NCBI GenBank assembly: GCA_024228575.1
Contig: JAAETH010000426.1
Span: 1 to 64,000 of the forward strand
Direction of reading: 5' to 3'
DNA length: 64,000 bases
Source of the DNA: Actinomycetes bacterium
GTDB taxonomy: Bacteria; Actinomycetota; Acidimicrobiia; Acidimicrobiales; Poriferisodalaceae
Shown here piece by piece: positions 32,845-40,841 of the stretch. The position numbers and the translations under genes were made by a program. Positions within the stretch are counted from its first letter, which is position 1; each line of letters begins with the position of its first letter. A model generated the notes under the pieces. That model saw only the letters and a program-made list of their open reading frames with translations, made no database searches and was not told the origin of the DNA.

Positions 32845-34251
32845 ATGCTCTTCAACAGTTTCATCTTCGCGGGCTTCTTCGTTGTTGTCCTCGCGTTGTA
32901 CAGGCTGGTCGGCCACGACTGGCAGAACCGGCTGCTGCTGGTCGCCTCGTACGTGTTCTACGCGGCGTGGGACTGGCGCTTCTGCAGCCTGTTGTTGATC
33001 TCGACCGTCGTCGACTACTACGTGGGTGGCCGGCTCCACACCACCGACGACGAGAGATCGCGAAAACGTCTGTTGCGCCTCTCGATGATGACCAATCTCG
33101 GCATCCTGGCGACCTTCAAGTACTTCAACTTCTTCATCGACTCTGCGACGTCCTTGTTGTCATCGGTCGGCCTCGACGCCTCCTCACCTGTGCTGAAGGT
33201 GGCGCTTCCGGTCGGCATCAGCTTCTACACGTTCCAAACCATGAGCTACACGATCGACATCTATCGCAGACGCCTCGAGCCGGTCGACTCGATCCGCGAC
33301 TTTGCCGTGTTCGTCGCCTACTTCCCCCAGCTCGTCGCGGGACCGATCGAGCGCGCATCAAATCTCCTGCCCCGCATCCAAAGGGATCGGGCCCATTCGA
33401 GGCAGCAGGATCTCGAAGGTCTGTGGCTCATGTTGTGGGGCCTGTTCAAGAAGATCGTCATCGCGGACAACGCAGCAATCGTCGTCAACGAGGTCTTCGC
33501 CTCCGACACACCCAGCAGCGGATTTGTGGGCCTCGTCGCCGTCTATGCGTTCGCGCTCCAGATCTACTGCGACTTCAGCGGATACTCCGATATCGCCAGG
33601 GGCGCTTCGAAGCTGCTCGGGATAGAGCTGATGCTCAACTTCGAAATGCCCTACCGCAGCCAGAACCCGAGCGAGTTCTGGCGTCGCTGGCACATCAGCC
33701 TCAGCACGTGGCTGCGCGACTACCTGTACATCCCCCTCGGGGGCAACAGGGGTGGCGAGCTGCTCACCTACCGCAACCTCTTGCTAACGATGACCATCGG
33801 GGGACTGTGGCACGGCGCGGCCTGGACCTTCGTCGCCTGGGGGATGTTCCACGGCCTATGGCTGGGTGCACATCGATACCTATCCGAGAAACGACCCGCT
33901 GCAAGTCCGACACCGGTGTTGCGTCTGCTCAAGCAGATCGGAACGTTCCATATGGTCTGTGTGGGGTGGCTGTTCTTCAGGGCCGAGTCGTTCGGTCAGG
34001 TGTTCAACTTCCTCGAGACGATGGTTCTCGACCTCACGATCACATCGGACCTGGGGCGGTACGTGTTCATTGTGGTCGTCTTGTCCGCAGCGCTGCTGTT
34101 GCTCGAGGGATGGCATCGCTCCGTCGATGATCCCTCGGCCAGCCTCGGCTGGCATCGGGGTCTGGGACCCACGATCGTCACCGGGCTCGTTCTCACGATG
34201 ATCGTCCTCGCGCCACCAGCAGGTGGCCAATTCATCTACTTCCAGTTCTGA
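32845..34251 (+). CDS. MBOAT family O-acyltransferase (AlgI-like)
   Basis: A 468-residue polytopic membrane protein. It opens with FNSFIFAGFFVVVLALYRL and has the AlgI/DltB-type signatures NYFNFFIDS-like YFKYFNFFID, FWRRWHISLSTWLRDYLY and the invariant His in GGLWHGAAWTF (His323). The family moves acyl groups from a cytoplasmic donor to extracytoplasmic polysaccharides. The next gene starts 1 nt after its stop and encodes an SGNH-like protein, the usual partner for completing O-acetylation. Confidence 0.92.
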   Translation: MLFNSFIFAGFFVVVLALYRLVGHDWQNRLLLVASYVFYAAWDWRFCSLLLISTVVDYYVGGRLHTTDDERSRKRLLRLSMMTNLGILATFKYFNFFIDSATSLLSSVGLDASSPVLKVALPVGISFYTFQTMSYTIDIYRRRLEPVDSIRDFAVFVAYFPQLVAGPIERASNLLPRIQRDRAHSRQQDLEGLWLMLWGLFKKIVIADNAAIVVNEVFASDTPSSGFVGLVAVYAFALQIYCDFSGYSDIARGASKLLGIELMLNFEMPYRSQNPSEFWRRWHISLSTWLRDYLYIPLGGNRGGELLTYRNLLLTMTIGGLWHGAAWTFVAWGMFHGLWLGAHRYLSEKRPAASPTPVLRLLKQIGTFHMVCVGWLFFRAESFGQVFNFLETMVLDLTITSDLGRYVFIVVVLSAALLLLEGWHRSVDDPSASLGWHRGLGPTIVTGLVLTMIVLAPPAGGQFIYFQF

Positions 34252-34252
34252 C

Positions 34253-35329
34253 ATGAAGCTCGGCAGGCCAATGAAACCCAAATGGCGAACCCTTCAATGG
34301 ATCATCATCCCGGTGATCATGATCATCGCGGTCGAGGGTGTGGCGCGGGTGGGTCTGTCGAACTACGAGGAGTGGTACGACTCGTCGGCGACCCACAACG
34401 CAGACATCGTCTTCATCGGCAGCTCCCGCGTGGCATCTGGCATCAATGCTCCGCTCGTGAGTCAGGTCGTGTCCGACGAGGTCGAATACCGGGTCAAGGT
34501 CACCAACCAAGGACGTGGCGGGTCCACGATCGTCACCCACTACCTGGAGCTTCGCGAGCTCATCGAATCCGGAAGACTCGAGCAGCCGATCGTCCTGCTC
34601 GAGCTGGCCGGTGAAGTCCCAGCGCCTCTGATGCGAGGAACCTGGGATGAGCGCTGGTTCCACCCAAAGTTCCCAAGCCTTCTGGCCAGGGCGATGACTG
34701 GCGACGATGTCGATCCCTTCCTCGAAGCCGACCACTCTCGTTCCGAACGTTTTGCGGTGCTGTCACGCTACGCGTTCAACAACAGCGATCTGATCTCGTT
34801 CAAGGACGGATGGCGAGACCTGTTCTTCGATCGGGGTGGAAAGGCAACAGGCGATGTTCTCGACCTGTTCTTGCCGACCACCAAAGGCGACGGATCAGGC
34901 CTGTCCGATGCCGGTGGTGTCGCAACCGATGCAGCGGGCGTCGAACGAGCTCGCGAACTCGCACTCGAACGACTCGAGAACGAGTCGCGTACGGGTGTGG
35001 TTCTCGACGACTGGAACGCGACCGTGTTGGCCAGCCTGGTCCAACTCGTCCACGACAACGGAGGTCGGTTCGTCTTCTTCCAGATGCCCGTGTCCTCGGT
35101 ATTCGAGATCGACTTCGAGACCGATGTGCACAAGGAGAACAGGACCAATTTCGCTTCCTCGATGAACGAGTGGGGCACACCTCTCATCGAGTTCGATCCC
35201 GGCCTGGACGACGAGTCCTTCCCCGATCTCTGGCACCTCGGCAAGGACGGCGCCGACATCACCAGCGAACAGCTGGGAGAGCTGCTCGCCCAGATGATCG
35301 CTGCTGGTGAACCAGGACTGACAGAATAG
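34253..35329 (+). CDS. SGNH/GDSL-like protein, probable partner of the MBOAT acyltransferase
   Basis: 358 residues: an N-terminal transmembrane anchor (about 13-31) then an extracytoplasmic domain. It has an SGNH block-I-like nucleophile motif FIGSSR (Ser57 or Ser58), an Asn/Gly motif NQGRGGST, and the C-terminal Asp-x2-His pair DLWH (Asp325, His328). This arrangement matches AlgJ/AlgX/DltD-type proteins that complete acyl transfer to polysaccharide. The ATG at 34253 follows the MBOAT stop by one base. Acceptor unknown. Confidence 0.8.
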   Translation: MKLGRPMKPKWRTLQWIIIPVIMIIAVEGVARVGLSNYEEWYDSSATHNADIVFIGSSRVASGINAPLVSQVVSDEVEYRVKVTNQGRGGSTIVTHYLELRELIESGRLEQPIVLLELAGEVPAPLMRGTWDERWFHPKFPSLLARAMTGDDVDPFLEADHSRSERFAVLSRYAFNNSDLISFKDGWRDLFFDRGGKATGDVLDLFLPTTKGDGSGLSDAGGVATDAAGVERARELALERLENESRTGVVLDDWNATVLASLVQLVHDNGGRFVFFQMPVSSVFEIDFETDVHKENRTNFASSMNEWGTPLIEFDPGLDDESFPDLWHLGKDGADITSEQLGELLAQMIAAGEPGLTE

Positions 35330-35398: not shown

Positions 35399-35470
35399 GC
35401 CCTCGTAGCTCAGGGGATAGAGCAGTGGCCTCCGGAGCCATGAGCGCAGGTTCGAATCCTGCCGAGGGCG
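35399..35470 (+). tRNA. tRNA-Arg (anticodon CCG)
   Basis: A 72-nt cloverleaf: acceptor GCCCTCG/CGAGGGC, D stem GCTC/GAGC, anticodon stem GTGGC/GCCAT with loop CTCCGGA (anticodon CCG at 35432-35434), T stem GCAGG/CCTGC with TTCGAAT loop, discriminator G. CCA is not encoded. It reads CGG codons. Its 3' half is the attachment site of the integrated element. Confidence 0.96.
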
Positions 35471-35479
35471 CATTCCGCA
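35430..35479. repeat. attL: 50-bp direct repeat in the tRNA-Arg 3' half
   Basis: Identical over 50 bp to 38902-38951, starting in the anticodon loop and running past the tRNA end (…GCGCATTCCGCA). Similarity continues 12 more bases with two mismatches (to 35491). Overlap with a tRNA anticodon/T-arm half and a linked tyrosine integrase identify it as an attachment site. The left copy rebuilds the intact tRNA. Confidence 0.93.
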
Positions 35480-35607
35480 GAATGGGCTCTGATCAGGGCA
35501 AAAGCCCCAGGTCAGACCCCTTTCGCTTTCTCCGCCACTCTTCCTGGTTCCACCCCATTTCTCGCCGGTTTTGGGGGCCCATTGGGAGGAAGACCCGTCC
35601 GTGGCGT

Positions 35608-35931
35608 TCACCTGGGGCCATCCGAGGGTCGCCAGCCGAGCTTGCGGGCCTCGTCCTCGACGACGATGCCGACCAACCTGGCAACCGGCACTTCGAGCTG
35701 TGTTGCCCAGGTGCGGAACCGGGTCCACGCGTCGTCGTCGACGAACAGGCGGGCGAATCGCTTCTGTCGCCGTAGGTGCGATCGGGGCGCCGAAGCCTTG
35801 GGCGAATCGGCGTTGTGCACTGCTTGGTGCACATGTTGGCGCACTGCCCGGGCGCTCAGCGACCGGTGCACCAGATCGCCAACCTGCTTGGCTACCGCCC
35901 GACGCCTCTTCACGGCATCGGCCTTGACCAC
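35608..35931 (-). CDS. Small basic protein with ribbon-helix-helix-like C-terminus
   Basis: 107 residues from a GTG at 35931; an in-frame stop lies 45 bp upstream. The N-terminal half is basic (KADAVKRRRAVAKQ). The C-terminal half has one predicted strand followed by two helices (KRFARLFVDDDAWTRFRTWA then EVPVARLVGIVVEDEARKLG), which fits the RHH DNA-binding fold. Such proteins on mobile elements act as copy-control regulators or relaxosome accessory factors; nothing here fixes which. It lies next to attL. Confidence 0.6.
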   Translation of the reverse strand: MVKADAVKRRRAVAKQVGDLVHRSLSARAVRQHVHQAVHNADSPKASAPRSHLRRQKRFARLFVDDDAWTRFRTWATQLEVPVARLVGIVVEDEARKLGWRPSDGPR

Positions 35932-36010
35932 CGTCCAGGCCTCGGGGTCGACTTCGACTTGAGTGGGTCGGTTGGGTTACCGCTTCTCCCCCCACATACA
36001 TGCCGCCCTG

Positions 36011-36313
36011 TTAGCGACGCCGCTTGCGTTCGAGCCGTGTCTGGTGCGCCCGCACGGACCGTTCGATCTTGCGGGCCACGACATCGTCGGCCCACTCCTC
36101 GTGCAGGGCACGGTCGTAGGCGTCGGCGAGGTCCTGGAGGCTTCGCCGGACGTCGCTCGCGCGAACGATCCACTTTCTGACCTCCTCGGGTGTGGAGCCT
36201 CGGGCTGCCCGGAGCTGGAGCTCGGCGGCGACAGCGAGCATGGTGTTGACCGCTTCCTCGGTGGTGAGCTGGGCGTCCTCCACAGACATGCTTCCGGTAG
36301 TTCGTCTGCTCAC
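36011..36313 (-). CDS. Small helical protein of unknown function (element-borne)
   Basis: 100 residues, GTG at 36313 (an ATG at 36289 is also possible). Predicted all-helical and charged (EEVRKWIVRASDVRRSLQDL), ending in RLERKRRR. No family recognised. It lies upstream of, and on the same strand as, the RHH-like gene (79-bp gap) and is divergent from the excisionase. Confidence 0.55.
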   Translation of the reverse strand: MSRRTTGSMSVEDAQLTTEEAVNTMLAVAAELQLRAARGSTPEEVRKWIVRASDVRRSLQDLADAYDRALHEEWADDVVARKIERSVRAHQTRLERKRRR

Positions 36314-36410
36314 CTACGGGAAGGCGCGTCGGGACGGCCAGACGCGACAGGGAATCTGAAGAAATCAGCGGTGGCGGTGTCGCGTTCGGTCGGATGCGCC
36401 TACCAGGGTC

Positions 36411-36650
36411 ATGCCCAGCGATTCCCACAGCCCAGCGCTGCTGACGGTGCCCGAAGTCGCCGACCTCATGGCCGTCGGCACCGCCTACGTCTACCGCCTC
36501 GTCAGCGAACGCCGAATCCCCTACCTCAAACTCGGCCACCACGTCCGCTTCGACCCGAGCGAGTTGGCGGAGTGGCTGGACAACTCACGAGTCGGGCCAA
36601 CCACCGTGCGATGCTCTCGGCGCGCCGACGGCCAAGTTCGACATCGGTGA
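36411..36650 (+). CDS. Excisionase-family DNA-binding protein (winged HTH)
   Basis: A 79-residue protein of the excisionase/HTH_17 type: LLTVPEVADLMAVGTAYVYR then RLVSERRIPYLKLG and VRFDPSELAEWL, the standard MerR-like winged helix. It should bias the integrase toward excision and may regulate the element. The stop overlaps the next ORF by TGATG. Confidence 0.88.
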   Translation: MPSDSHSPALLTVPEVADLMAVGTAYVYRLVSERRIPYLKLGHHVRFDPSELAEWLDNSRVGPTTVRCSRRADGQVRHR

Positions 36651-36814
36651 TGACAGCGGCGCAGTGGAAACGGGCAGTGCTTCCTCTGCTAGCTGATCCT
36701 TCCGGTTGGGCGTTCCGCGGGAAACTCGCCTACAGAACTCCTGTCGACTGGGTACTCACCGGAATACACCGAGGCGCTCGAACGCGCACTCGCAGGGTTG
36801 GAAACCCAGGATGA
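36650..36814 (+). CDS. Small protein, probable truncated remnant, coupled to excisionase
   Basis: 54 residues starting at an ATG that overlaps the excisionase stop. The first 38 residues (WKRAVLPLLADPSGWAFRGK, then LAYRTPVDWVL) look like the opening of a conserved bacterial protein. The last 15 (HRGARTRTRRVGNPG) look out of frame, while the +1-overlapping frame (SPEYTEALERALAG) continues plausibly into 36798-37067. It may be a broken or recombined gene. Confidence 0.45.
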   Translation: MTAAQWKRAVLPLLADPSGWAFRGKLAYRTPVDWVLTGIHRGARTRTRRVGNPG

Positions 36815-37067
36815 TGCGCTTGGGCGTATGGCGGCAAGCGATCGTGAGGAGAACGCCTACGCAATGCTCCTCCTCGGACGGAGGCGACGGGCGCAGCGGT
36901 CCCCGGCTCGACCCTTCTTTCCCACAGACAACCGGGCTTTCGTCGAGGACGAGCGCTCGCGACGAGCTCAGATCCTCAGCCTGGTCGAAGCAAGAGATAT
37001 CGACGGGGCCCTCGCGTTCCTGCGAGCGTGGCGCGACTTCACCGCATCAGCACTACGTGTCGAGTAG
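36798..37067 (+). CDS. Small hypothetical protein (element-borne)
   Basis: 89 residues from a TTG; the frame is open further up to about 36700 without an ATG or GTG. Charged, Ala/Arg-rich and helical (DREENAYAMLLLGRRRRAQR and EARDIDGALAFLRAWRDF). No family recognised. Overlaps the end of the previous ORF by 17 bp in a different frame, so it may once have been joined to it. Weak start; moderate coding likelihood. Confidence 0.4.
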   Translation: METQDDALGRMAASDREENAYAMLLLGRRRRAQRSPARPFFPTDNRAFVEDERSRRAQILSLVEARDIDGALAFLRAWRDFTASALRVE

Positions 37068-37214
37068 CAGCTCCCGACAGTGGATAGACACAGGCAGCGA
37101 CCGACCGCCAGAAGCGCAGAACCCGGTGGCTCCTCAAACGGGGGAGAACACCGGGTCCACTTCCAGCTCCGAGTGGAGCCGTCTTGTTCAGTATCGCCAG
37201 ATGTGCCGGCGACT

Positions 37215-37772
37215 TCAACCTAATTCGTCGATTTCGCGAAGTGTTGTGACGGGCTCGATGAGCCTCCGCCACTCGCCGCCTCGGCCGAACGCCCAGCCGA
37301 TTGCGTCGGGTAGCGCCAGCAGGCAGTCATCGCCCGAAGCACGATGGATGAACCCGAACCGCTCAACACACGCTGTACGCATCGCCTCGTGAAGTGTGAA
37401 CCGGTCCTGGCGGTCCCGAAGCTCGCCGCGGGTGTCGAGCACTGCGGACACGACGTCGAGCGTGGGCACATCGGCAACCAGCCCTTGCAGGCACCGATCC
37501 CGCGAAGCCTTGTCATCGCCACGACCGGCGTATGGCGTCTCGTACACGGTGGCGCGAATCTCGAGGCTGGCAAATCCTCGAAGGATCTGCCGGCGCCTCT
37601 GCTTGCCTTCGTCGGACATGTGCGGCCGCCGCTGGCCTTTCGGGATTCGTTGCCGGACGTCACGGGTCACGACAGCAAGGTCCTTCGAACGGACCCGAAC
37701 GGATGTGAGCCGATAGGTGCGGCCCCTGATGCTCTCGTCGATGAATGCGTGGAACGGTCCTCGTTCGATCAT
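37215..37772 (-). CDS. DUF3800-like / RNase H-fold protein coupled to the integrase
   Basis: 185 residues; the ATG overlaps the integrase stop by ATGA. It opens HAFIDESIRGRTYRLTSVRV, with Asp12-Glu13-Ser14 on the first strand. A second Asp (Asp113, VLDTRGELRD) and a third (Asp156, LLALPDAIGWAFGRGGEWRR) follow. This acidic layout is that of the DUF3800 group, which has an RNase H-like fold and a proposed but unproven nuclease role. Basic loop GQRRPHMSDEGKQRRRQIL. It could process element DNA/RNA or act against competitors; both are inference. Confidence 0.65.
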   Translation of the reverse strand: MIERGPFHAFIDESIRGRTYRLTSVRVRSKDLAVVTRDVRQRIPKGQRRPHMSDEGKQRRRQILRGFASLEIRATVYETPYAGRGDDKASRDRCLQGLVADVPTLDVVSAVLDTRGELRDRQDRFTLHEAMRTACVERFGFIHRASGDDCLLALPDAIGWAFGRGGEWRRLIEPVTTLREIDELG

Positions 37773-38832
37773 GCGAGGATTGCCTCGATGCGCGCGTTGG
37801 CGAGTTCCTCGTCACCATCGATGGCGCCGACGTAGGTCGATACCAGAACCTCGACCGAATGGCCCAGGCGACGGGCGACCTCGCCGAGCGGGACTCCGGC
37901 ACGAAGCCAAGTCGTGGCCGCTGCGTGGCGGCAATCGTAGACCCGCAACCTCGGATGCTCGATCGAGCGCAGTGCTCGCTGCCAACACCTGGCCCAGTTC
38001 GATGCAGTCGGGCGCCGACCGGTCCGAGTGCGAAACAGCAGGTCATCGGCGCCGAACTCGTTCTCGTCGATGAATTCGGCGAGGATCTCGACGAGCACAG
38101 GCGGAATGGGCACCGACCTGGCCCCGGTCTTGGGCTCTCCGGGCTCGTCGAATGAGATGTCGGCCTCGGTGACGTCGATGCGACCCCAGCCGGCCTCTGG
38201 CAGCTCCAGAGCCGAGGGACGCAGCATGATGACCTCGGACGGGCGGAGCCCGGCGTAGTACGCCACCGCCGTCATCACCCGGTAGGTGCGGCTGGCCGGC
38301 TGGTGGCTGACCATCGCGTCGAGCGCTTTCGCCATCGTCGCGGGACCGGGCAGCTTGCGCAGGTCGACCATGCGCTTGGCCCGCATCGCCTTGCGCTGAG
38401 AGCGACCCCGATCGTTGGGCGGCCATGGATCGGCCGGGATCAGCTCGAGGCCACGGCTCGTCTGATGCACGCCTTGGCCGTCTTGTGGAACCGCCCGGCG
38501 GTCGATGCCGCCAGAAGGGCACCGTTCTCGCCGAGGCCCAACGACACGTCGACTCCGGCCAGAACCTGGCGGTTCAGGTCGCTCAGGCGCAGCGACCAGC
38601 GCTCGAGCCACTCGGGCCACTGCTCGGCCAGATACGACCGGTAGCGGTCGACCTCGACCCTGGTGTGGAATGCTCGGCTGTGCTGGGGGCCGTCAACGGA
38701 CCAGCGGACGATCCAGGGACGCTTGATGCGGGCGTTGCGATTGCGGTGCTGGAGCCCGAAGATCTTGACGTCCTGCATCGGCCGACCGATCGCCTCCGGC
38801 ACAAACGCCGCCCGATTCATTGGGAGGAGCAT
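37769..38832 (-). pseudogene. Tyrosine integrase interrupted by a -1 frameshift
   Basis: The N-terminal SAM-like core-binding part (ATG 38832 or 38820) reads to a stop at 38440 and contains VRWSVDGPQHSRAFHTRVEV and LLAASTAGRFHKTAKACIRR. The catalytic part continues in another frame to 37769: first Arg in YYAGLRPSEVIML, YDCRHAAATTWL (HxxR box with Tyr for His), RLGHSVEVLVSTY with the nucleophile Tyr. Homology switches frames near 38445-38455. Loss of one base is the simplest explanation; no good slippery site is seen. The protein would match typical phage-type integrases if repaired. Confidence 0.8.
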
Positions 38833-38901
38833 GGGAGGAACCTACCCAGCGGGCGGGACACAACGCTCTGACCAGGGCCTATTCCCCGAAAGAGGTAAGT
38901 G

Positions 38902-38951
38902 CTCCGGAGCCATGAGCGCAGGTTCGAATCCTGCCGAGGGCGCATTCCGCA
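38902..38951. repeat. attR: 50-bp direct repeat, tRNA-Arg 3' fragment
   Basis: Identical to 35430-35479. It carries only the anticodon loop onward, so it cannot fold as a full tRNA. It marks the right end of the element, 69 bp beyond the integrase start. Confidence 0.93.
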
Positions 38952-39013
38952 AAGTGGGCTCTGCGACGGTCGCCAGCCGAGCACTCCTCGTTGGCGTCAT
39001 CACGATCGGATCG

Positions 39014-39220: not shown

Positions 39221-39460
39221 TCAGTCGGCGGTGAGCTCCTCGGGCCGTGAAACCGCCGGGTTCTTCGGCTGTTTTGCCGGAGCGAACATGGCCCACAGAA
39301 CGCCGACGGCGATTCCCACGACGATCAACACGATCGGCATGATCGAGTCGAGGGTGATCATCTTTCGACCGACGGCTACGAGCGCGAGCCCGATTCCTAG
39401 AACGACTCCATAGATGGCACCACGGATCGGATGACGTTTCACGGTGGTCTCGGCGGTCAC
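39221..39460 (-). CDS. Small two-helix membrane protein
   Basis: 79 residues from a GTG at 39460, chosen because GGGGAGG lies 6 nt upstream and the GTG overlaps the previous stop by GTGA. Two transmembrane helices (AIYGVVLGIGLALVAVG and IMPIVLIVVGIAVGVLWAMF) separated by a short loop, with a Pro/Lys-rich tail. Coupled to the secreted protein upstream. Function unknown. Confidence 0.75.
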   Translation of the reverse strand: MTAETTVKRHPIRGAIYGVVLGIGLALVAVGRKMITLDSIMPIVLIVVGIAVGVLWAMFAPAKQPKNPAVSRPEELTAD

Positions 39461-40506
39461 TTCGAACCTCCCCATGTCAGAGCCGGTCTGGCGTTGAACA
39501 GCAGGCCGATCGCGGCGATGGCGGCGAGGGCAACTCCGGGAAGTGTGGGATCGAGATCGCCCGACAGATCGACGAACCCAGATCCGACACAGCGGAAGTC
39601 ACCGCCTTCAGCTTCCATCTGGCCGTTTGCACCGAGTACCGCATTGATCTTGGCTGCTGCGGGCAGGTCGTCACGAAGGTTCACCGCACCGGCGTTTCGG
39701 TTCTCACCAGCACCGTTGGGATCACCGCCCGCATCGAGTGTCGTGCCTGTCCCGAAGAGCTTGAGCTGGAGGAACCAGTCGTGATCTCGAGGGCCCGATC
39801 CCAGTTCGAGTCCGCCTGCGACCCCGGTGTAGATCACAAACCCATTGGCATCGACCCGGAACGGATTGCTCGACGTGAACGCCTGCGAACCAGCTCCATC
39901 GCCGAAGAGATCGACCGGGGCGTTGGCGAAGCTCCAGTCGGCAGCCTGATCGAGTGGCAGGCCGTTCTTGTCGTACGACCATGCCATGCCCATACATGGC
40001 CCCGACAGGGCGGATCCCGAACCGGCGATCAATCCAGGATCGCAGCCCGACCGCCGCACCTGGGTCTCGGCTTGCTGGACTAGTGCATCGGTGGCCTGGA
40101 TGGTCACGGCGCCATCCTCGTCGATGGTCACGACATTTGAGTTCTCGCCCGGACTGATGTCTCTCACGCCCGGCTCGCCAAGCAGACGATCCAGCGCGTC
40201 GAAGTCGGGATTGCCCTCGGCATCGTCGGGCAGGTCGGGAAAGCCGTCTCCATCCGCGTCTGGAAGGCGTGCGTACACTTCGGCGAGGATGCCTGCGACC
40301 TCGCCGCTGCCGAGCACAGAAGGAAGGGTCCCGCCTTTTCCATCCTTCGCTGGGTCGAGGCTGAGGTCCTCGATGGGAACCTCGTCGGGAATGTTGTCGA
40401 GACACGGGTCGTCGGTCTGAGCTGCTACCCGAGGAGAAAACCCGACGAGCAGAAGCGACACGATCCCAAACAGACCACCGACGAGCGTGTAGCGGCGCAA
40501 CGACAT
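39457..40506 (-). CDS. Secreted/anchored protein with Asp-rich calcium-type motif
   Basis: 349 residues from the ATG at 40506 (AAAGG 7 nt upstream). Signal peptide to about residue 27 (ends RVAAQ). Near residue 85-110 a DADGDGFPDLPDDAEGN segment resembles EF-hand/thrombospondin-3-type Ca2+ loops. Four or more Cys (CLDN, CDPGL, PCMGM, FRCVG) suggest disulfides. A C-terminal hydrophobic helix (LPGVALAAIAAIGLLFNA) followed by a short basic tail anchors it. It is coupled by GTGA to the small membrane protein. No family identified. Confidence 0.75.
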   Translation of the reverse strand: MSLRRYTLVGGLFGIVSLLLVGFSPRVAAQTDDPCLDNIPDEVPIEDLSLDPAKDGKGGTLPSVLGSGEVAGILAEVYARLPDADGDGFPDLPDDAEGNPDFDALDRLLGEPGVRDISPGENSNVVTIDEDGAVTIQATDALVQQAETQVRRSGCDPGLIAGSGSALSGPCMGMAWSYDKNGLPLDQAADWSFANAPVDLFGDGAGSQAFTSSNPFRVDANGFVIYTGVAGGLELGSGPRDHDWFLQLKLFGTGTTLDAGGDPNGAGENRNAGAVNLRDDLPAAAKINAVLGANGQMEAEGGDFRCVGSGFVDLSGDLDPTLPGVALAAIAAIGLLFNARPALTWGGSK

Positions 40507-40841
40507 GGACATACCTTTCGTCGTCCGCCGTAGCTCGAACGGTCCGAACCCCTTCCGTTTGGCACGGCGGTCGTCCACAACCATCCTGTCGTCTCGATGG
40601 GGTCTGGGCAAGTCTCTGTCCCTGTGCGTACACCGTTGAACACACGGACACAGATCACGACGAGCTGAAGTATCGATCGCAAGACGAGGTGCTCAAAGGA
40701 GTCGGCGGCATCGAACATCCCAAGCCCAGCCCATATTTCGACCCCTAACGTACATTTTAGACCTCGAACGTATGAGCTGGATCTGAGCTCCCTCCAAACC
40801 TTTGGCATCATTGCTGTTGCGGGATGACAAGGGAGGCGAAC
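40507..40841. promoter_or_regulatory. 335-bp divergent intergenic region with a nested hairpin
   Basis: No convincing gene. Near the minus-strand gene, CCGCCGT (40525-40531) pairs with ACGGCGG (40564-40570) and encloses AACGG (40538-40542) with CCGTT (40555-40559), a possible structured 5' leader. I compared it by eye with c-di-GMP-I and cobalamin riboswitch cores and found no match. A TAAAAT on the minus strand near 40761 could be a -10 box. Confidence 0.4.

Follow-up and report, generated by a model that had tools for sequence, protein, structure and literature searches.

AICEs of the pSAM2/pMEA300 type combine a tyrosine integrase and a small HTH excisionase with a replication initiator (RepSA, RepAM or Prim-Pol) and an FtsK translocase, and insert into the 3′ half of tRNA genes (PMC3218068). 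PICMI phage satellites, which span a few kb, carry int, an AlpA/HTH_17 gene and a mandatory primase at a fis site, and in 21 of 35 PICMI subfamilies a gene overlapping int by a few nucleotides ('iolg') is present (PMC10803314). In iMOB and iOriT elements, int and xis occur without a transfer channel of their own; iMOBs have a relaxase of their own, and iOriTs an oriT on which a relaxase acts in trans (PMC11389934).

The locus described here, 3.5 kb long, lies in a window of 64,000 nucleotides from an uncultured actinobacterium, which is the whole stretch of DNA that was analysed. Its attL and attR repeats enclose 3.4 kb (Table 1), and the left copy completes an intact tRNA-Arg(CCG), an arrangement that the preliminary description had proposed and that was confirmed by ARAGORN, Rfam and the repeat coordinates. 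The two copies of the repeat are identical over exactly 50 bp, beginning in the anticodon loop, and remain 97% identical when extended to 62 bp. In a genome of the same genus (G001), the tRNA gene is preceded by the same gene and followed by the same genes with no insert between them, giving an empty site. The insert is also absent in 60 relatives, and the insertion is therefore real. DNA matches to the insert in family members are limited to its tRNA part. A fixed chromosomal segment, the reading that the preliminary description had named as its own refutation, is contradicted by the empty site and by homologous genes that other genomes carry at different tRNA genes.

Table 1. Features of the element and its flanks (positions in the window).
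Feature	Position	Strand	Basis or remark
tRNA-Arg(CCG), intact, integration target	35399–35471	+	ARAGORN and Rfam
attL core: tRNA 3′ half from the anticodon loop, plus 8 bp	35430–35479		50-bp perfect direct repeat
Terminator-like inverted repeat, CTCTGATCAGGGC aaaa GCCCCAGGTCAGA	35487–35516		16 bp past tRNA-Arg(CCG)
Coiled-coil and tandem ribbon-helix-helix (RHH) gene, broken	35608–36313	−	Intact homologues at L021, L177 and L068
HTH_17/AlpA-type excisionase gene (xis), intact, 79 aa	36411–36650	+	Pfam HTH_17, 5e-13; PHROG excisionase, 8e-10
Gene without assigned function, frameshifted near 36750	36650–37067	+	Two overlapping frames
Non-coding stretch 3′ of the DUF3800-like gene	37068–37214	−	Minus strand folds somewhat better than its shuffles, z −2.9
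DUF3800-like RNase H-fold protein, intact, 185 aa	37215–37772	−	AF2 model; ATG overlaps the integrase stop
Tyrosine integrase gene, in two frames owing to a 1-nt shift near 38450	37769–38832	−	Pfam Phage_integrase, 5e-14 (C-terminal part); frames; homologues
attR core: partial tRNA copy	38902–38951		50-bp perfect direct repeat
Candidate remnant of a second, tandem element	38952–38982		12 bp left-arm-like, then 19 bp resembling the RHH gene 3′ end

The inverted repeat that follows tRNA-Arg(CCG) may be the terminator of the tRNA gene. A sharper form, CCTGACCAGC-N-GCAGGTCAGG, is found at about the same distance in element-bearing tRNA-Arg(CCG) sites of four other genomes (G088, G060, G135 and G263), and 8 of the 9 places at which the repeat was found adjoin tRNA-Arg or a partial copy of it. 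The possibility that it is an arm specific to the element was rejected, since the same repeat follows tRNA-Arg(CCG) in G313, where no recognizable element is present.

The insert contains five genes, encoding a tyrosine integrase, a DUF3800-like protein, an excisionase of the HTH_17/AlpA type, a coiled-coil/tandem-RHH protein, and one protein without assigned function. The earlier count of seven was revised: the integrase frames (38440–38832 and 37769–38620) form a single gene, as do ORFs 36011–36313 and 35608–35931, which correspond to one intact 263-aa homologue in G060 (L021, 2533–3324). The RHH gene is interrupted by TAA codons at 36011–36013 and 35977–35979 and by a frameshift between 35980 and 36010. 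For the C-terminal part of the gene without assigned function, no homologue was found in 247 other genomes of the order. Only xis and the DUF3800-like gene are intact, the other three being broken by frameshifts or stops. Lesions are confined to the element, and 94% of the window consists of long intact ORFs. Set against this background, the three broken genes show that this copy is decaying, and to judge from its sequence, the insert is what is left of a very small mobile element, in line with the degraded form that had been suggested. Assembly errors are an unlikely cause of the lesions, given the intact coding of the window and the stop codons in the RHH gene. A programmed frameshift in int was rejected, since the site (GTG GCC TCG AGC) lacks a slippery heptamer and int is not the only broken gene.

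No replication initiator (RepSA, RepAM or Prim-Pol), FtsK/SpoIIIE protein, relaxase or primase was detected among the element ORFs using Pfam and PHROGs, which upholds the reported absence of the first two and extends it to the relaxase. The element shares with AICEs its integrase (here frameshifted), small HTH excisionase and insertion into a tRNA 3′ half, but lacks their replication initiator and translocase, and carries DUF3800-like and RHH genes. It resembles iMOB and iOriT elements in having int and xis with no transfer channel, and in having integrase kin in TrwC-bearing elements, but lacks the relaxase of an iMOB. The resemblance to PICMI includes the size of a few kb, the ATGA overlap between int and the gene that follows, and the AlpA/HTH_17 excisionase. 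This layout, together with the absence of conjugation genes, would suit a minimalist phage satellite of the PICMI kind, with one or two further unknown genes, that a helper phage would induce and package. Such a satellite is nevertheless unlikely: the mandatory primase is absent, the site is tRNA-Arg rather than fis, a tandem-RHH gene is present in addition, there is no known helper phage, and the integrase kin sit with relaxases. Furthermore, IMG/VR scans returned no DUF3800-like or RHH relative, and among phage records the DUF3800-like protein was found only in Mycobacterium phage Gaia.

The AF2 model of the DUF3800-like protein (pLDDT 91.6) is nearest in fold to RNase H2, then weakly to MutS and RuvC, and also matches a viral DUF3800 protein. 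In common with DUF3800 (PF12686), the protein has an RNase H-like fold, a DES motif at its start and a late D motif; it differs in scoring below the Pfam cut-off and in being joined to an integrase gene. PF12686 matches were obtained for 3 of its 16 relatives (best E-value 3e-4) and none for the protein itself, and PADLOC and NCBIfam gave nothing useful. The four-nucleotide overlap with int (ATGA, 37769–37772) recurs at two other loci, L068 and L061. DUF3800-like genes without int or a tRNA gene are found in many other actinobacteria, and in the tree of the family the int-linked members fall into several supported groups; the coupling to int may have arisen more than once, or may be old and often lost. 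Position and fold together suggest a role for the protein in the element. A DUF3800-associated ncRNA was considered for the non-coding stretch beside the gene and was set aside, as Rfam matched no such RNA either in the window or in the 19 relatives; the folding score of this stretch may still be meaningful.

The RHH family is present in 14 of 397 genomes, and of its 13 places outside the window, 10 have a tRNA gene within 3 kb, compared to an estimated expectation of ~8%. A complete 6.57-kb element in tRNA-Pro of G039 is bounded by an att repeat of 64 bp and carries int, HTH_17 and RHH genes, and no rep, FtsK or relaxase gene was found in it. In G199, a locus adjoining tRNA-Leu (L068) contains four genes that the element also has (int, DUF3800-like, HTH_17 and RHH). 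An att search in L068 and several other loci gave no clear right end. RHH genes are also found next to a serine recombinase (L181). Relatives of both the RHH and the DUF3800-like gene of the element recur beside tRNA genes in this order. The preliminary description had pointed to four small unknown genes as candidates for an undescribed system; this is partly right, in that the DUF3800-like and RHH genes form a recurrent set with int and xis. Two of the four, however, are parts of a single broken gene, and the class of most of the genes is recognizable.

The model of the L021 homologue contains two beta-alpha-alpha units, giving a double RHH fold. Its top 11 PDB matches are all F relaxosome entries, although the matches are weak (E-value 0.04). 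F TraY is itself a double RHH in one chain, and the match may reflect only this property. The protein is like F TraY and enterococcal PcfF (PMC12117103, PMC6514445) in its RHH DNA-binding fold, having two RHH units per chain as in TraY and a helical stalk as in PcfF; it differs in that no sequence similarity to them was found, the fold match is weak, and its gene is not beside a relaxase gene.

The closest integrase homologues are 68–72% identical, and 2 of the closest 5 are located in larger elements that also encode a relaxase of the TrwC (MOBF) type. Further kin occur on a complete AICE-like Streptomyces plasmid with FtsK, Prim-Pol and DUF3631. Both observations, like the three broken genes, would fit a deletion derivative of a large TrwC integrative element or AICE, a chance remnant between att sites that was never a small element. 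We consider this origin doubtful. The RHH gene was absent from the TrwC elements examined; simple deletion therefore does not yield the gene set of the element. Small sets of a similar kind also accompany different integrases at other tRNA genes (L068, L186). The same assembly contains two contigs with TrwC, one with int, DUF3800-like and HTH_17 genes (C960) and one with int and HTH_17 (C150). These are possible helpers in the same cell, as for an iOriT, with the caveat that the assembly is a MAG and contamination is possible. Against a link with such helpers, TrwC was present at none of the 14 RHH loci examined, so that RHH and relaxase were not found together; in blastn comparisons with C960 and C150, the element shared no stretch beyond HTH_17, and no oriT was identified in it. 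As the element has neither transfer nor replication genes, it is nevertheless plausible that it depended for movement between cells on another, larger element, as the preliminary description had suggested, and elements of this kind are present in the same genome.

The short piece beyond attR is suggestive of a second tandem element, with none of 150 control pieces scoring as high. A CIME-like cis-mobilizable island, moving only by recombination with a resident element that shares the tRNA-Arg att site, would explain such a piece, and has parallels in the partial int and att copy in tandem in G263 (L218) and in the published tandem AICEs in tRNA-Arg (PMC3218068). We regard it as very unlikely, since the element has int and xis genes of its own (int now broken), the window holds no further full att copy, and the tandem remnant is short.

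We favour, with a probability of about one half, a relaxase-less, non-autonomous integrative element that hitchhikes on conjugation and is now decaying, and that is neither an AICE nor a PICMI. It would have entered tRNA-Arg(CCG) by tyrosine-recombinase integration into the half from the anticodon loop to the 3′ end, with the tRNA rebuilt at the left, and would have been excised by its integrase acting together with the HTH_17 protein. The DUF3800-like protein, whose translation would be coupled to that of the integrase, might assist recombination or DNA processing, in the place taken by 'iolg' in PICMI satellites. The tandem-RHH protein might mark and bend a site on the element once it is excised as a circle, in the manner of TraY in the F relaxosome, and the MOBF/TrwC relaxase of a larger sibling element would then nick and move the circle in trans. 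Since int, the RHH gene and the gene without assigned function are broken, the element should now be immobile unless complemented.

As a speculative extension, which we think improbable in its full form, Acidimicrobiia and their kin may harbour an undescribed class of 3–7-kb tRNA elements, consisting of int, an AlpA-type excisionase, a DUF3800 RNase H-fold nuclease that is translationally coupled and acts in excision, and a double-RHH protein resembling TraY, through which the MOBF relaxase of larger siblings would be recruited. Such elements would be conjugation hitchhikers that have no relaxase and bring their own relaxosome accessory protein. Many integrase-only small genomic islands have no known way to move, and DUF3800 is widespread and unexplained. 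Two testable partner genes are offered here: the integrase-coupled DUF3800-like gene, and a double-RHH gene whose product resembles a relaxosome accessory factor, TrwC elements being present in the same genome. The copy in the window is in decay; the idea can be tested in intact relatives, among them the 6.6-kb element in tRNA-Pro of G039.

The preliminary description had proposed a 50-bp direct repeat, an intact tRNA-Arg(CCG) and an insert between the repeat copies, and all three were confirmed at their coordinates (see table). The repeat begins in the anticodon loop, runs to the 3' end of the tRNA and continues for another 8 bp, as is usual for tyrosine recombinases. The empty site that the preliminary description had suggested looking for exists: in G001, a genome of the same genus, the tRNA lacks the insert but shares the gene on its 5' side and the genes on its 3' side, the latter matching over 39273-40529 at 74%. 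DNA matches to the insert in family members cover the tRNA part only, and partial matches in the more distant genome G060 reach further into it. In G001 the tRNA directly follows a gene from which, in the window, it is separated by an MBOAT acyltransferase gene and another gene of SGNH/DltD-like appearance, so that the sequence 5' of the tRNA is variable too. An inverted repeat after the tRNA may be its terminator, and a remnant of a tandem second element is suggested beyond attR.

Coordinates of the features in and beside the insert
Feature	Position	Strand	Observation
MBOAT and SGNH/DltD-like-looking genes	32845-35329		
tRNA-Arg(CCG)	35399-35471	plus	intact
attL	35430-35479		
RHH gene	36011-36313 + 35608-35931	minus	two halves of one gene, by the G060 homolog
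HTH_17	36411-36650	plus	intact; matches excisionases
Split gene	36650-37067		split by a frameshift near 36750
Non-coding stretch	37068-37214		behind the DUF3800-like gene
DUF3800-like gene	37215-37772	minus	start within the integrase stop (CTCGCATGATCG)
Tyrosine integrase	37769-38832	minus	C-terminal catalytic domain (Pfam 5e-14); N-terminal part in another frame
attR	38902-38951		

Five genes were counted in the insert instead of the seven short genes first described; among the five is the ribbon-helix-helix (RHH) gene, whose two halves had been taken separately. The absence claimed for a replication initiator and an FtsK-like translocase held up: Pfam and PHROG scans of the insert found neither, nor a relaxase, primase or phage packaging gene. 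The window copy is decaying. The integrase lacks one base near 38450, and the G060 homolog of the RHH protein reads ...RRRVEGGLYAGEKRSPNRPTQVEVDPGAW... across the spot that is interrupted in the window by a TAA, a frameshift and another TAA. For the C-terminal part of the split gene, no homolog was found in the 247 other genomes searched. Only the DUF3800-like gene and HTH_17 are intact, and two of the lesions are stop codons rather than indels. Outside the insert the window lies in long open frames (called ORFs cover 94% of the window, median 341 aa), and the lesions are therefore concentrated in the element.

The AlphaFold2 model of the DUF3800-like protein (pLDDT 91.6) best matched RNase H2 in the PDB (E 2e-5), with weaker matches to MutS and RuvC; in BFVD it matched a DUF3800 protein from a phage (TM 0.72). 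Pfam DUF3800 was matched weakly by 3 of 16 relatives. In the alignment of these 16, S14, R16, H51, E55, R91, H143, L152 and D156 are invariant, and D12, E13, R59 and R60 nearly so. A published AlphaFold analysis likewise assigned DUF3800 to the RNase H fold and noted a rearranged catalytic site (PMC10910872). Of 298 genomes of the order, which its named relatives identify as Acidimicrobiales-like, 23 have the family; 9 of 20 loci studied have a tRNA gene no more than 3 kb away, and at several the gene comes after that of an integrase, with an overlap of exactly four nucleotides in the window (ATGA) and at L068 and L061 (GTGA). Members from Pseudonocardiales, Nocardia and Rhodococcus nearly always lack a neighbouring integrase or tRNA. 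The iolg gene of PICMI satellites also overlaps int by ATGA and is required for excision (PMC10803314); the analogy with the DUF3800-like gene is one of position. The minus strand of the non-coding stretch folds better than shuffles (z -2.9) and matched no Rfam family; structured RNAs are known near DUF3800 genes.

Twelve RHH sequences have a long helix and a basic linker besides a beta-alpha-alpha unit that occurs twice; in the model of the intact G060 protein the two units are strand 151-158 with helices 160-172 and 177-188, and strand 217-224 with helices 227-239 and 244-258. The top 11 PDB matches of this model are F-plasmid relaxosome chains, all weak (E 0.04 and up), followed further down by VirC2 and single-chain Arc. 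We take the F chains to be TraY, given their length, their occurrence in a structure that lacks TraM, and the fact that the published complex has three copies of TraY. The family is present in 14 of 397 genomes, and at 10 of its 13 places outside the window a tRNA gene is no more than 3 kb away (Arg(CCG) twice, Arg(ACG), Leu(GAG) twice, Leu(TAA), Cys, Ala, Glu and Pro), against ~8% expected by our own estimate from ~46 tRNA genes per genome. Tyrosine integrases are neighbours at four places; at least one has a recombinase that its sequence marks as of the serine type. The gene is kept beside tRNA-Arg(CCG) in G060 and G088. Gp49-like (HigB/RelE type) toxin genes were also seen near tRNA-Arg(CCG) in two genomes, namely G060, where an HTH antitoxin gene accompanies the toxin gene (L021:3335-4020), and G135 (L219:7647-7979); tRNA-Arg(CCG) seems to be a hotspot.

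Similar gene sets recur at other tRNA genes; kinship is judged here by gene sets, not DNA identity, among genomes that are mostly MAGs. In ~3.1 kb, L068 (G199) holds tRNA-Leu, int, a frameshifted DUF3800-like gene, HTH_17 and RHH, and the att search found no right end. An 8.3-kb element in tRNA-Gly (L063, G316; 33-bp repeat) carries int, DUF3800-like and HTH_17. We put the probability that the insert is a small integrative element in decay, and that its type is a recurrent one, at roughly 85%.

AICEs were ruled out by the missing rep and FtsK, PICMIs by the lack of a primase and the different site, and iMOBs by the lack of a relaxase. The closest integrases (68-72% identity) are in five genomes of other families, including G263, where the contig has an attR copy of tRNA-Arg(CCG) and, some kb away, a TrwC relaxase, and G186, where AbiE genes accompany a TrwC relaxase. 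At a tRNA-Arg(CCG) att site G263 also has, in tandem, a truncated second integrase with an att copy (L218:9389-12180). One stretch next to tRNA-Gly (L051, G063) combines int, DUF3800-like, HTH_17 and TrwC. The source assembly itself (G000; 6.15 Mb, 960 contigs, some of which may be foreign) has int, a divergent DUF3800-like gene, HTH_17 and TrwC on contig C960 (L244), and int, TrwC and HTH_17 on contig C150 (L243). No TrwC was found near the RHH loci examined. In the plasmid collection, the closest match to the integrase (34%) is on a complete 13.5-kb AICE-like Streptomyces plasmid.

The element would work most like a relaxase-less mobilizable element, a class in which membership turns on an oriT. 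The open-access literature yielded nothing on such elements in Acidimicrobiia. Its ancestor would have been an integrative element with int and xis, in which the DUF3800-like protein, coupled to int, would help recombination and the TraY-like RHH protein would allow mobilisation by a resident TrwC element; we consider this hitchhiking on conjugation tentative, with the odds somewhat against it. A complete element in tRNA-Pro of G039 (L186:4550-11185), with a 64-bp att repeat 6.57 kb away, carries int, HTH_17, RHH, a DUF5615 gene and genes of unknown function, with no rep, FtsK or relaxase found in its scanned ORFs, and offers a good intact model for tests.
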